NCBI GenBank assembly: GCA_944372795.1
Contig: CALWAF010000001.1
Location: 128,390 to 192,389 of the forward strand
Source of the DNA: an uncultured Clostridia bacterium
GTDB lineage: Bacteria > Bacillota > Clostridia > Christensenellales > CAG-917
Length of the DNA stretch: 64,000 nt
Direction: 5' to 3'
Of this stretch, positions 50,265 through 55,814 are shown piece after piece. The stretch's first letter is position 1, and every line of letters begins with the position of its first letter. The position numbers and the translations under genes were made by a program. The notes under the pieces were generated by a model that had not been told where the DNA came from, made no database searches, and saw only the letters and a program-made list of their open reading frames with translations.

Positions 50265-50891
50265 TCACAGCGCCTCGAACGATCTTCCCGTCACTTCTGC
50301 GCGCACCCTTCCGGAGCTTTGCGCCTCTACAAGCGTCAGCGCCTCGCTCTCCTTCTCGCACTCCACGCACCACTCCGACTCTATCCCTTCGCCGTATTCC
50401 GCCGCAAGTTTCTTTGCGCCGTATCTCGTGAGCGCCTGCTCGAGAGGCGGATGATCGGGATATGAACAGCGCACGACAAATCGCGCGCATTCCGTCATCG
50501 TGACTTTTTCGGCGCAGTCCACCGCCGTGACGACGCTGTCCGTGTACGCCGCGACCAGTCCTCCCGCGCCCAGCTTTATGCCGCCGAAGTATCTGGTGAC
50601 CACCACGGCGGTCTTGACGAGCCCCCGCTTTTTCAGCACTTCGAGCATGGGTTGACCCGCGGTGCCTCCGGGTTCGCCGTCGTCCGAAAAGCGGGCTTCG
50701 CTCCCGCGCTCGTCGGCGATGTAGGCGTAGCAGTTGTGCGTCGCGTCGGAATATCTCTTTCTCACTCCGCGCACGAAATTCTCGGCTTCTTCGCCGCCTT
50801 CCACGTGCGCAATGGTGGCGATGAACTTCGAGCGCTTTATCTCCGTCACGCTCTCGGTCTCGCCGCGTACCGTGAGATAACTCCTACTCAA
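50265..50891 (-). CDS. YigZ/IMPACT (UPF0029) family protein
   Basis: 208 aa with the N-terminal IMPACT domain: SKFIATIAHV near 20-29, HNCYAYI near 53, FSDDGEPGGTAGQPML near 70 and VTRYFGGIKLGAGGL near 98-112. A C-terminal DUF1949-like domain follows. Function in bacteria is unsettled (translation-related suggested). It overlaps the tyrS 3' end by eight bases, so it is expressed with tyrS. Confidence 0.93.
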   Translation of the reverse strand: MSRSYLTVRGETESVTEIKRSKFIATIAHVEGGEEAENFVRGVRKRYSDATHNCYAYIADERGSEARFSDDGEPGGTAGQPMLEVLKKRGLVKTAVVVTRYFGGIKLGAGGLVAAYTDSVVTAVDCAEKVTMTECARFVVRCSYPDHPPLEQALTRYGAKKLAAEYGEGIESEWCVECEKESEALTLVEAQSSGRVRAEVTGRSFEAL

Positions 50892-52098
50892 CGGTCACCT
50901 TGAAGAAGTTTTTCTTGCCCTTTTGCAGGACGAAGCCGTTCGCGCGCTGACTGTCGGTGAGCTCTGCGCCGATGTCCGTCACTTTTACGCCGTCCACGAG
51001 TACGCCGCCGCCTTGGATGAGTCTGCGGGCTTCGCTCTTGGACGGCACTTTCGCCACCGCGACGAGCACTTCGGCTATCTGCGTCATATCCTTCGGGATG
51101 ACGGCGGACGGCATATTGTCGCTGTCGCCCGAGAACGCCGCCTTCGCCTTCGCGAGAGCGTCCTCTGCGGCATCCTTGCCGTGCACCATGAGGGTGAGCT
51201 CGTATGCCAGCCTCTCCTTTGCCGCGTTCATGCGCTCGTCGTTGTAGCGCGTGAGCTCGTCTATCTCTTCGAGCGGCAGGAATGTGAGGAAGCGGAACAC
51301 TTTGTTGACGTCCGCATCGGGGATGTTGCGCCAATACTGGAAGAAGTCGTAGGGAGACGTCTTCGCGGGATCGAGCCACACCGCGCCCTTTGCGGTCTTG
51401 CCCATCTTGATGCCTTCGGATGTAGTGAGCAGCCCGAAAGTGATGGCGAACGCGTCCTTGCCTTCCTTTCTTCTGATGAGGTCGGCGCCCGCGAGGATGT
51501 TGGACCACTGGTCGTCGCCGCCGCATTGCAGCACGCAGCCGTACTTGCGGTTGAGCACGAGGAAGTCGTAAGACTGCATCAGCATATAGTTGAACTCAAG
51601 GAACGTGAGTCCCTTTTCCATGCGCGCCTTATAGCACTCCGCAGTCAGCATCTTGTTGACGGAGAAGCAGGAGCCTATCTCGCGCAGGAAGTCGATGTAA
51701 TTGAGCCCGAGCAGCCAATCGGCGTTGTCTACGACGATGGCGCCGTCTTTTTCGTCGAAGCGGATGAAACGCGCCATCTGCTTCTTGAAACAATCGACGT
51801 TGTGTTGTATGGTCTCGCGCGTCATCATGCTGCGAAGATCGGTGCGTCCGGAGGGATCGCCGATCATCGCCGTGCCGCCGCCGATGAGGATGATGGGACG
51901 GTGTCCCGCCTCCTGCAAACGCTTGGCAACGATGAGCTGCACGAAATGCCCCACGTGCAGGCTGTCCGCCGTGGGATCGAACCCGATGTAGAAGCACTGC
52001 GGACCGCTGTCCAGCAATTTTTTGAGGTCGTCTTCAAAGACGGTCTGCTTGACAAGACCGCGCGCTCGGAGTTCGTCTATGATGTTCATCTTGGGCAT
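50884..52098 (-). CDS. tyrS: Tyrosyl-tRNA synthetase
   Basis: Class I synthetase of 404 aa. HIGH motif HVGH at 48-51, KMSKS-type motif KMGKT near 235, and a C-terminal S4 RNA-binding domain (SEARRLIQGGGVLVDG). The KMGKT variant with the longer linker is the TyrZ-like/clade-2 type. Own sigma-A promoter; no T-box leader in the short upstream region. Confidence 0.97.
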   Translation of the reverse strand: MPKMNIIDELRARGLVKQTVFEDDLKKLLDSGPQCFYIGFDPTADSLHVGHFVQLIVAKRLQEAGHRPIILIGGGTAMIGDPSGRTDLRSMMTRETIQHNVDCFKKQMARFIRFDEKDGAIVVDNADWLLGLNYIDFLREIGSCFSVNKMLTAECYKARMEKGLTFLEFNYMLMQSYDFLVLNRKYGCVLQCGGDDQWSNILAGADLIRRKEGKDAFAITFGLLTTSEGIKMGKTAKGAVWLDPAKTSPYDFFQYWRNIPDADVNKVFRFLTFLPLEEIDELTRYNDERMNAAKERLAYELTLMVHGKDAAEDALAKAKAAFSGDSDNMPSAVIPKDMTQIAEVLVAVAKVPSKSEARRLIQGGGVLVDGVKVTDIGAELTDSQRANGFVLQKGKKNFFKVTVE

Positions 52099-52258: not shown

Positions 52259-52675
52259 TTACAGTGCCCTCCGCATCCACACGTGCGGCACACCTTCATC
52301 CTCGTCGGGCTCGCCGAAAGGCTCATATCCGAGCTTTGCATAAAACCCGGACGCCCGCGTCTGCGCATGTACGAGTGCGACCCGTCCGCCCTCTGCGGCT
52401 ATCATCTTCTCCGCCGCACGCACCGCCGCCGCGCCCATGCCGCTCCCGCGATATTCTTTCAGCACAGCTATCCTGCCAATGGCATAGACGCCGTCGCCCT
52501 GCCCGAAAAACCTGCAAGTAGCAATGGGTTTTCCGCATTCTAACAGCACCAAATGCGTGGACGAGGCATCGACGTCGTCAAATTCCGCGGCATAGGAGAA
52601 ACCCTGTTCCTCCACGAAGACCGTGGTGCGGATGTTTCGTGCCGCATCCGGCAAAAAGCCGTACGTCTTGATCAC
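52259..52675 (-). CDS. GNAT family N-acetyltransferase
   Basis: 138-aa acetyltransferase (from GTG). IRTTVFVEEQGF near 17-28 and the acetyl-CoA loop EYRGSGMGAAAV near 79-90 are typical of ElaA-like members. GTG at 52675 is chosen because AAAGGGA stands six bases upstream; an in-frame ATG at 52699 would start almost exactly at the predicted transcription start. Confidence 0.88.
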   Translation of the reverse strand: MIKTYGFLPDAARNIRTTVFVEEQGFSYAAEFDDVDASSTHLVLLECGKPIATCRFFGQGDGVYAIGRIAVLKEYRGSGMGAAAVRAAEKMIAAEGGRVALVHAQTRASGFYAKLGYEPFGEPDEDEGVPHVWMRRAL

Positions 52676-52706
52676 GATGTCCCTTTCATTCCTTTCCATC
52701 ACCGCA

Positions 52707-52735
52707 ATTCTAGCAAAACCGCCACTCCCCGTCAA
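52707..52735 (-). promoter_or_regulatory. Sigma-A promoter of the GNAT gene
   Basis: Minus strand TTGACG, 17-bp spacer, TAGAAT; transcription would start near 52700, giving a leader of about 25 bases to the GTG. Confidence 0.8.
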
Positions 52736-52849
52736 CCGTCGGATGAAGACGAGCGGGGCGTACCACGCCTGTCCGATCGTCGGCGCTTTCCGAGCAGCAG
52801 CACATTCTGTCCGACACGCTCCTTTTTGCCGATGCTTACGACACTGCGC

Positions 52850-52894
52850 CTATTTTGCCGATGCCTCTTGCACTGCCACAGCACACGCAACGGA
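52850..52894 (-). pseudogene. Gene-tail fragment A of the GGGtGRT gene
   Basis: 15 codons reading S-V-A-C-A-V-A-V-Q-E-A-S-A-K-stop (TAG), matching the last codons of the intact gene except one Leu-to-Ser change. No start or upstream coding sequence. Confidence 0.8.
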
Positions 52895-52898
52895 AGTT

Positions 52899-52970
52899 AT
52901 TAGACCAAAAACACGCCGCATTTGGCGGCGTGTTTGATGTTCGGCGCTTACGCGCTTCACATTGGTCTAT
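52899..52970. terminator. Structured hairpin element 1 of the tail array
   Basis: Outer arms TAGACCAA/TTGGTCTA enclose a perfect terminator stem AAACACGCCGC/GCGGCGTGTTT, the conserved spacer TTGATGTTCGG and a small hairpin GCG-CTTA-CGC. T-run follows the stem on the minus strand. Confidence 0.75.
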
Positions 52971-52998
52971 TCCGTTGTCTTGCTTGTCGCCGAAGCGC

Positions 52999-53043
52999 TC
53001 ACTTCGCGAGCGCTTCCTGTACGGCGACTGCGCAAGCCACCGT
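52999..53043 (-). pseudogene. Gene-tail fragment B of the GGGtGRT gene
   Basis: 15 codons T-V-A-C-A-V-A-V-Q-E-A-L-A-K-stop. Every sense codon after the first keeps its amino acid yet differs from the intact gene, always at the third base; stop is TGA instead of TAA. Confidence 0.82.
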
Positions 53044-53045
53044 TT

Positions 53046-53120
53046 GATAAAACCAAAATGCGCCCTCCCTTGACGGGACGGCGCATTGATGTTCGGTGCT
53101 TCGCACCTCATGGTTTTATC
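53046..53120. terminator. Structured hairpin element 2 of the tail array
   Basis: Outer arms GATAAAACCA/TGGTTTTATC (10 bp) enclose stem ATGCGCC/GGCGCAT, the conserved TTGATGTTCGG spacer and small hairpin GGTGC-TTC-GCACC. The stems differ in sequence from elements 1 and 3 but keep pairing. Confidence 0.75.
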
Positions 53121-53132
53121 CGTTGCGTGCGC

Positions 53133-53177
53133 TTACTTTGCCAGTGCCTCTTGCACTGCCACAGCGCAAGCCACCGA
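53133..53177 (-). pseudogene. Gene-tail fragment C of the GGGtGRT gene
   Basis: 15 codons S-V-A-C-A-V-A-V-Q-E-A-L-A-K-stop (TAA), closest to the intact gene, with a few third-base changes. It lies 131 bases downstream of the real stop. Confidence 0.82.
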
Positions 53178-53181
53178 AGTT

Positions 53182-53251
53182 ATTAGACCAAAAACACGCC
53201 GCATTTGGCGGCGTGTTTGATGTTCGGCGCTTACGCCTCACTTTGTCTAAT
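53182..53251. terminator. Structured hairpin element 3, probable terminator of the GGGtGRT operon
   Basis: Outer arms ATTAGAC/GTCTAAT enclose stem AAACACGCCGC/GCGGCGTGTTT, spacer TTGATGTTCGG and small hairpin GGCG-CTTA-CGCC. It begins just after the stop of the intact gene in the direction of transcription. Confidence 0.8.
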
Positions 53252-53263
53252 GTGGCTTTGCGC

Positions 53264-54268
53264 TTATTTTGCCAGTGCCTCTTGCACTGCTACCGCACAC
53301 GCAACGGAAGCCCCGACCATGGGATTATTTCCCATGCCGATGAGGCCCATCATTTCGACGTGCGCGGGGACGGAGGAAGAGCCTGCGAACTGTGCGTCGG
53401 AGTGCATCCTGCCCATGGTGTCCGTCATGCCGTAAGACGCGGGACCCGCAGCCATATTGTCGGGATGCAGCGTCCTGCCCGTGCCGCCGCCGCTTGCGAC
53501 GGAGAAGTACTTCTTGCCGTGCTCGACCGCCCACTTCTTGTAGGTGCCGGCGACGGGGTGCTGGAAGCGGGTGGGGTTGGTGGAGTTGCCCGTGATGGAG
53601 ACGTCAACGTCCTCGAGACGCATGATGGCGACACCCTCGGTGACGTCGTCGGCGCCGTAGACGCGGACTGCCGCGCGCTCACCCTTGGAATATGCAGTCT
53701 CTTTCACGATCTTGACTTCACCGGTGTAGTAGTCCATCTTGGTCTGCACATAGGTGAAACCGTTGATGCGGCTGATGATGTACGCCGCGTCCTTTCCGAG
53801 CCCGTTGAGGATGACTTTGAGGGGCTGTTTGCGCACCTTGTTTGCCGTCTTGGCGATGCCGATGGCGCCCTCCGCCGCCGCGAAAGACTCGTGTCCGGCG
53901 AGGAATGCGAAGCACTTGGTCTCCTCACGCAGAAGCATTGCCGCTAGGTTGCCGTGACCGAGTCCGACGGCGCGCTGCTCCGCGACGGAGCCGGGGATGC
54001 AGAAGCTCTGCAGACCGATGCCGATGGCTTCGGCTGCATCGGCTGCGTTCTTGCAGCCCTTCTTGATGGCGATGGCGCAACCGACGGTGTACGCCCACAC
54101 CGCGTTCTCGAACGCGATGGGCTGCACGCCCTTGACGATGGCTTCGACGTCGATGCCCTTCTCGGTGCAGACTGCTTTCGCGTCCTCGAGGGAGGCAATG
54201 CCGTACTCTTTGAGCGCCTTGTTGATCTTGTCGATCCTTCTCTCGTAACCTTCGAATCTGATGCTCAT
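53264..54268 (-). CDS. GGGtGRT protein
   Basis: 334-aa protein of the family named for its motif, seen here as GGGTGRT at residues 260-266. Function is not established; the family almost always stands next to an IscU/NifU-like scaffold gene in anaerobic Clostridia and archaea, as here (12-base gap). Other conserved segments are GLGHGNLAAMLLREETKCFAF split at 102-122 and AGTYKKWAVEHGKKYFSVAS near 240-259. No TM segment. Its last 15 codons are repeated three times downstream. Confidence 0.93.
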   Translation of the reverse strand: MSIRFEGYERRIDKINKALKEYGIASLEDAKAVCTEKGIDVEAIVKGVQPIAFENAVWAYTVGCAIAIKKGCKNAADAAEAIGIGLQSFCIPGSVAEQRAVGLGHGNLAAMLLREETKCFAFLAGHESFAAAEGAIGIAKTANKVRKQPLKVILNGLGKDAAYIISRINGFTYVQTKMDYYTGEVKIVKETAYSKGERAAVRVYGADDVTEGVAIMRLEDVDVSITGNSTNPTRFQHPVAGTYKKWAVEHGKKYFSVASGGGTGRTLHPDNMAAGPASYGMTDTMGRMHSDAQFAGSSSVPAHVEMMGLIGMGNNPMVGASVACAVAVQEALAK

Positions 54269-55083: not shown

Positions 55084-55368
55084 CATTGAATTGTTCTTTA
55101 CCCCCTTACTGCGGGTTTCGTCGGGCTCGGAGGTAAAATAAACTGTCGTCCTCTGACATGGGAGTATTGTTCCCCCTCCTTCCCTTCGGGTATTCCTCCC
55201 CCACTCGTGAAGAGTTCAGTCCTCTATCATGGAAGTATTGATTGCCCCCTTCCTGCGGGGTTTCGTTGTGCTCGGAGGTAAAATAAACTGTCGCCCTCTG
55301 ACATGGGAGTATTGTTCCCCCTCCTTCCCTTCGGGTATTCCTCCCCCACTCGTGAAGAGTTCAGTCCT
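55084..55368. repeat. Tandem repeat: two 145-nt units, each of two related ~72-nt halves
   Basis: The motif CTCGGAGGTAAAATAAACTG recurs exactly 145 bases apart (from 55126 and 55271), and the block from TGACATGGGAGTATTG to GAAGAGTTCAG is repeated almost perfectly. The two halves of a unit also resemble each other (CATGGGAGTATTGTTCCCCC against CATGGAAGTATTGATTGCCC). No ORF with a ribosome-binding site spans it. Confidence 0.88.
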
Positions 55369-55814
55369 CCTAAAATGCGGGATATACTTTTCGTCCTTTT
55401 TGATAAAGTTTGAATCTCGCATAGAGATAATCAATCGGAGAACAGTACTCACTGAACATCGCTCGCGGGGAGAGGAAGGCGACTCGACGCGCACGAAGCC
55501 CGTGTCTATTTAATGTTTCATCTGGCTTGCGAGGTCGCATTTCGCGCCGCGGCGTTCAAGCGGCGGCTGCGCCGCCTGTGAACGCTTGGTGAGCGGCGCG
55601 TAGTTCCGCCTCCGAACATGTTAGCGTCGTGGTCAAATACACCCTGAACAAGTGCACGTCGGAGCGGCTCCACTCCGAAAGAGATAACGTCATGTTGGGA
55701 CGTCACGCTCAAGCGGCGCGTAAGACCGTCTTCGAAAGAGGTTTCATCGGGCTCAAATGCGATCTATCAAGCTGCTCGACAATACGCCCTTAAACAGGAA
55801 CGTGTTGAAACCAA
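55369..55814. other. Repeat-rich intergenic region
   Basis: About 450 bases without a supported gene. A short motif AAGCGGCGCGTA and similar GGTGAGCGGCGCGTAG occur twice (near 55591 and 55710) in loosely similar surroundings, suggesting an older duplication. Confidence 0.5.

Follow-up and report, generated by a model that had tools for sequence, protein, structure and literature searches.

Elements with a tyrosine integrase occupy the 3' ends of housekeeping genes; the gene is left undisrupted, and one of the flanking repeats includes the gene end (PMC5704250). Tabulated 3'-end targets are guaA, rplL, rpsI, trmE and yicC, and GGGtGRT is absent from the integration targets given in that source (PMC5704250). 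Decayed att-flanked pieces may accrete, and are then called CIMEs (PMC5704250). Integration at 3' ends that restores the gene is an established process (PMC5704250), so the principle of tail replacement is not unique to GGGtGRT. In literature mostly from outside subscription journals, we found no description of arrays of such att remnants and, in titles and abstracts, no treatment of the GGGtGRT 3' end. Furthermore, no description of a cargo-less, structured form of about 130 bases was found in the literature.

The window (the whole stretch of DNA analyzed, 64,000 nucleotides) comes from the genome of an uncultured Clostridia bacterium (G000). Its intact GGGtGRT gene, the insertion target, encodes 334 aa (53264..54268, minus strand; Pfam PF14057, E=3.8e-198) and is preceded by a NifU-like gene. 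Two 112-bp direct repeats (55113-55224 and 55258-55369; 97% identical, 145 bp apart) are located upstream of the NifU-like gene and have no relation to the tail units. Past the GGGtGRT stop codon, three extra copies of the gene tail, a GNAT acetyltransferase gene (52259..52735; Pfam PF13673/PF00583) and tyrS (50884..52098; Pfam PF00579, E=4e-81) follow in this order, all on the minus strand. The attached tail (tail 0; last codons SVACAVAVQEALAK plus stop; 53264..53308) begins a 131-bp unit 0 (53178..53308), which was delimited by sequence and folding. Next come the 134-bp unit C (53044..53177), with displaced tail C (53133-53177) and a structured end of its own, and the 149-bp unit B (52895..53043), whose displaced tail B (52999-53043) represents a second (type II) coding form. 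Tail A (52850..52894), displaced and decaying, is the oldest. A possible fifth tail scrap (52815..52840), suggested weakly by repeat family D8, repeats the end of tail A (GCATCGGCAAAA). The three displaced copies are real, with the predicted spacing of 149, 134 and 131 bases from A to B to C to the intact tail. An assembly artefact from mixed strains, a doubt that the original prediction had raised against itself, is unlikely, because the array lies within a 192-kb contig and similar arrays are present in other assemblies.

We compared the tails with each other. Tail B differs from tail 0 at 14 nucleotides, which affect 13 of 13 codons and the stop (TGA in tail B); the differences are of mixed types, nearly all at third positions, and all of them are synonymous, as are all six differences between tail C and the intact tail. 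Tail A was expected to be only slightly divergent. Indeed, it shows five differences, but not all are silent: three are synonymous, and the other two make up one Leu-to-Ser change. Tail A also ends with TAG and has lost its post-stop arm. That all three copies meet noncoding sequence at the same codon held to within about one codon and not exactly, because Ser precedes tails A and C, and Thr precedes tail B. Among 20 pairs of attached and detached tails from 14 loci, in which pairs from one genome are not fully independent, 142 nucleotide differences were counted, 126 synonymous and 16 nonsynonymous. A neutral simulation of these 142 differences gave 113.5 expected nonsynonymous changes, with a minimum of 97 in 2,000 runs. 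This confirmed that decay of junk alone cannot produce silent-only divergence. We conclude that the displaced tails are coding-constrained. Decay is seen at the distal ends, in tail A of the window, in partial tails past the G005 and G006 arrays, and in the last tails of G010 and G031.

The original prediction offered two sources for such tails, diverged functional paralogues and tail exchange at a fixed point. The first is not supported: G000 contains a single GGGtGRT match, and no array lies beside a full-length paralogue. Paralogue bodies, full or partial, were not found, and almost all relatives with a match have one full copy. The second is a real possibility, since integrase-bearing elements do this at the GGGtGRT 3' end in related Clostridia.

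In other Clostridia, integrative elements repeatedly use the 3' end of GGGtGRT as their attachment site and bring with them a recoded replacement tail, often with a terminator. When 291 genomes of the class were scanned for the gene end, several proved to contain two or three copies of it on the same strand and kilobases apart; at each of the six loci retrieved, one tail was joined to the gene body and the remaining tails were detached. Altogether, foreign DNA splits attached and displaced tails in eight other genomes (1.8 to 93 kb) and in one viral contig. It amounts to 15 kb in G434, 7 kb in G625, 9 kb in G433, 49 kb in G579 and 4.3 kb in G540, and G527 has three tails. In the window's own family, about 93 kb with phage tail-fibre-like and holin genes separate two tails with the same codons in G033, the second of which adjoins tyrS. 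In G012, a 3-kb holin-bearing remnant lies between two tails that are followed by the same sequence. The gene end forms direct repeats around foreign DNA in G012, G033, G434, G625, G433, G579, G540 and G527. The target protein is restored: attached and displaced tails differ silently or nearly so, and silent divergence was also detected across kilobases of foreign DNA (6/6 differences in G012 and 6/6 in L047). Phage likewise brings a terminator immediately after the tail. An element-borne replacement tail explains both silent-only divergence and the fixed joint.

In G625, G434, G433 and G579, the attached tail is soon followed by a tyrosine integrase gene (PF00589; E 8e-28 to 2e-32), and the same arrangement is present in G277 (E=7e-19). 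In the former four genomes, the hairpin TTAGACACATCATT...GATGTGTCTAA or a relative separates the tail from the integrase gene. A conserved hairpin, (T)TAGACACATCATT...GATGTGTCTAA or its relative GCACACATCAT.., was also observed behind the GGGtGRT stop in unrelated genomes (loci L181, L182, L184, L186, L180, L178, L179 and L140), mostly just before an integrase gene; it is a candidate terminator or integrase site. The 32-kb viral contig IMGVR_UViG_3300018878_002442 contains two modules of tail plus tyrosine integrase, with phage tail genes (tape measure, tail protein) upstream of one tail, and represents elements accreted in tandem. Two further observations concern single loci. At the G540 locus (L183, positions 1098 and 5395), attached and displaced tails encode different C-terminal extensions (AMRSKKFERVVPIKK versus AMRAKKVVITKPDLK), and here the integrating element alters the end of the protein. 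In an Oscillospiraceae genome, an IS200-like, RAYT-like Y1 transposase gene (PF01797; L047, 5908-6276) lies just past a displaced tail. Seven INPHARED matches to the tail proved to be unannotated contigs from human feces and were not used as evidence; the MT83xxxx records (L131 to L135) are unverified "Bacteriophage sp." entries of human-fecal origin that contain GGGtGRT tails, and L131 (H1) appears to be bacterial chromosome.

Each array unit consists of a recoded tail, which forms a hairpin with bases behind the stop, and a stem that holds a terminator. In the window units, the tail codons and the stop are followed by GCGC, a stem around a small hairpin (GGCGTAAGCGCC or GGTGCGAAGCACC), then CGAACATCAA, which is conserved, and a terminator hairpin plus T run; the units end with ..GGTCTAATAAC. 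Unit 0, for example, reads tail 0, TAAGCGC, an outer stem (GCCAC-ATTAGAC / GTCTAAT), the inner hairpin and the terminator hairpin. The terminator-like hairpin of unit 0 (AAACACGCCGCC..GGCGTGTTT then a T run; 53192..53218) is identical to that of unit B (52909..52935), while that of unit C (53059..53085) has a different sequence with compensating changes. Three of the four terminators in G009 are identical as well. Such identical parts within arrays mean that duplication or gene conversion is also at work locally.

The joint in the arrays lies between S and V, 13 to 14 codons from the gene end, has the form TC(N)GTNGC / GCNAC, and coincides with the base of the tail hairpin. Tail B folds with the arm 3' of its stop. 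Type II units pair as TCGCCG...CTCTTAC gaa GTAAGAG...CGGCGA, and the unit of G004 pairs as GTGGCTTGTGC...GCATAAGCCAC. In most units the tail hairpin is stronger (z about -2 to -4) than those of synonymous recodings that keep the post-stop bases unchanged. The fold is not significant at 5% in five units (G000_0, G000_C, G024_1, G024_2 and G027_1), and pairing with the unit's own arm is not clearly superior to pairing with the arms of other units in G010, G031, G024_2, G000_0 and G000_C. Of the 19 consensus pairs, 7 show two-sided changes, most of them within the terminator stem. The strength of the tail hairpin and these two-sided changes would be expected if the repeated hairpins ending the GGGtGRT transcript regulated the gene, with copies kept for dosage. 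We regard such a functional RNA as highly improbable: untranslated copies need not keep first and second codon positions for the sake of structure, the tail hairpin is missing in most single-tail genomes, and the Rfam scan gave chance matches only and none of note.

A search for tails downstream of GGGtGRT in related genomes, as proposed in the original prediction, revealed stacks in 10 species from three genera of the family. Arrays are present in G000, G002, G005, G006 and G009 of the host genus, in G024, G027 and G031 of a second genus and in G010 of a third; in the host genus, G004 has one unit plus an original-looking tail, and G001, G003 and G007 have single tails. Across 396 genomes of the order, a pattern scan detected close multiple tails in this family only. 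In ten genomes of the host genus, the units occur at the GGGtGRT gene only, which ruled out a dispersed mobile repeat. No tail arrays were detected at other genes among 2,436 ORF ends in 464 kb of G000, where the remaining matches came from one short, spurious ORF and from reading frames antisense to the array. In the unit tree, types I and II each mix species within the host genus; between-genus relations are not settled by the tree.

The unit length is nearly constant (126 to 151 bp across the three genera), and most units retain both halves of the outer stem. These data bear on whether the arrays could be full-size integrative elements or prophages, each stripped of its cargo by deletion so that just the replacement ending is left beside the displaced tail, as in a decayed CIME-like accretion. 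Such elements do occupy the site in the family (G012 and G033) and in the class, a similar sequence follows the tail in G028, G029 and G064, and a terminator directly after the tail is also phage-borne. Random deletions, however, would not give units of such uniform length with both stem halves, and we consider independent stripping improbable.

A different, smaller form of stack exists in Treponema. In L054/G407, four tails encode DVSTALNK and a stop in units of 67 to 68 bp, and each tail pairs with an arm behind its own stop, in which silent tail changes are mirrored (GTTTCTACCGC/GCGGTAGAAAC versus GTTTCAACTGCC/GGCAGTTGAAAC). One of the four tails is out of frame through loss of one base. 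G408 has two tails, and in L053/L174 and L171 a single structured end precedes what appears to be a degenerate tail start. The Treponema stacks are a separate lineage with an independent origin at the same gene.

The main and serious rival explanation is tandem duplication with turnover. Here, slippage or recombination would copy the tail with its terminator, and unequal crossing-over would cycle tails through the attached position, where amino acid changes are purged. This would account for the coding constraint. G009 contains identical 277-bp dimers, the units of G010 are near-identical, and units 0 and B of the window share their terminator sequence; moreover, the joint common to g1, g2 and g4 could be inherited, and type I and type II units are intermixed along arrays. 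Duplication accounts less well for other data. The most distal tails of G004, G027 and G010 lack unit structure and carry their own terminator instead of the duplicated 3' sequence; in G027, tyrS is next. An array of three to four copies with turnover should lose one of the tail forms, yet both forms, which differ in nearly all codons, coexist in five species of the host genus. In addition, the Treponema stacks arose independently at the same gene, and the use of the same gene end by integrases elsewhere would be left unexplained. On this evidence, we consider duplication with turnover rather unlikely as the origin of the arrays.

On balance, we lean slightly toward the window array being a stack of cargo-less replacement ends at an attachment site of integrative elements. 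According to this proposal, an element would insert near the GGGtGRT end and supply a new ending made up of recoded final codons, a stop and a terminator; the protein would be kept intact, and the former ending would be displaced downstream. Repeated rounds would build a stack in which the youngest copies are gene-proximal and the distal ones decay, and duplication and conversion may later have reshaped it locally, as in the G009 dimers and the terminators of units 0 and B. The distal tails of G004, G027 and G010 fit best with an original ending displaced downstream, behind one or two structured units. The downstream neighbors point in the same direction. They vary between congeners, as expected of an integration hotspot: tyrS, the likely ancestral neighbor, directly follows a single tail in G007, G030 and G035, and a GNAT-like ORF occupies the same position in the array-bearing G006 and G009 as in the window (three array species) and is absent from G007. 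This gene behind the arrays (window 52259-52735, L136 and L145) is a possible hotspot passenger.

The preferred reading, a stack of replacement ends, implies a recombinase. We infer that the 131- to 149-bp units were themselves inserted by site-specific recombination, and their mobility, like the choice of recombinase, is part of this inference. No integrase or other cargo is present in or beside the window array, where tail repeats flank only about 86 to 104 bp. Among the family genomes examined, a nonexhaustive set, no full-size element found at the GGGtGRT gene had the same ends as the units. In full-size elements, homology begins about 25 to 32 codons from the gene end; the array joint is nearer to the end, and the recombinase would therefore differ. 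Family-wide searches, which covered tyrosine recombinases other than the IntI type, yielded no candidate tied to the arrays. Four distant matches all fell in array-bearing genomes, but they belonged to two unrelated types and none was at the locus; a second search showed no association.

More tentatively, the units could be miniature integrative elements without cargo ("tail cassettes"; 67 to 150 bp) and form a class not described before, a view toward which we do not lean at present. Such cassettes would have at one end a hairpin with the recoded last GGGtGRT codons as its coding arm and at the other a hairpin-bearing stem; they would enter at a fixed codon, leave the protein restored and swap between species in at least two phyla. 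If units of about 130 bases are self-mobile, they would rank with the smallest known integrating elements, and integrase studies would gain ready-made minimal donors. Phages and other integrative elements dock repeatedly at the end of this widespread gut-bacterial gene, which is strongly conserved, and silent codon differences mark the foreign endings, so that a record of tail replacement remains visible. The integrases identified at the GGGtGRT end are testable.

Among known systems, diversity-generating retroelements also have the 3' end of a gene copied downstream of it. In the window, however, the differences are silent and not adenine specific, with the 14 differences between tails 0 and B being of mixed types, and the unchanged protein is the opposite outcome; this reading fails. 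Integron attC arrays are similarly tandem, and the outer stem arm of some units pairs with the beginning of the unit that follows. In contrast to integrons, the window has no cassette genes, the units belong to one specific gene, and the joints (TC(N)GTNGC / GCNAC) lack the GTTRRRY/RYYYAAC boxes; without these R'/R'' core boxes, the integron reading fails as well. CIME accretion, as in ICESt1-related elements of Streptococcus thermophilus, has a head-to-tail stack of recombinase-less, att-flanked pieces at a gene 3' end; the window units likewise lack a recombinase and are stacked, with a fixed joint, and their ends may be att ends. CIMEs are kilobases in size and, although decayed, still contain genes, whereas the window pieces hold little beyond a putative att end and a terminator. 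Finally, prophages, ICEs and IMEs integrated at 3' ends have a tyrosine integrase beside the restored gene end, as do the elements at GGGtGRT in other Clostridia; the window units differ by their length of 131 to 149 bp, their tail hairpin and the lack of integrase and cargo. With units that carry neither recombinase nor cargo, the window would belong to this class only in part, and the process at the window itself appears to resemble 3'-end integration.
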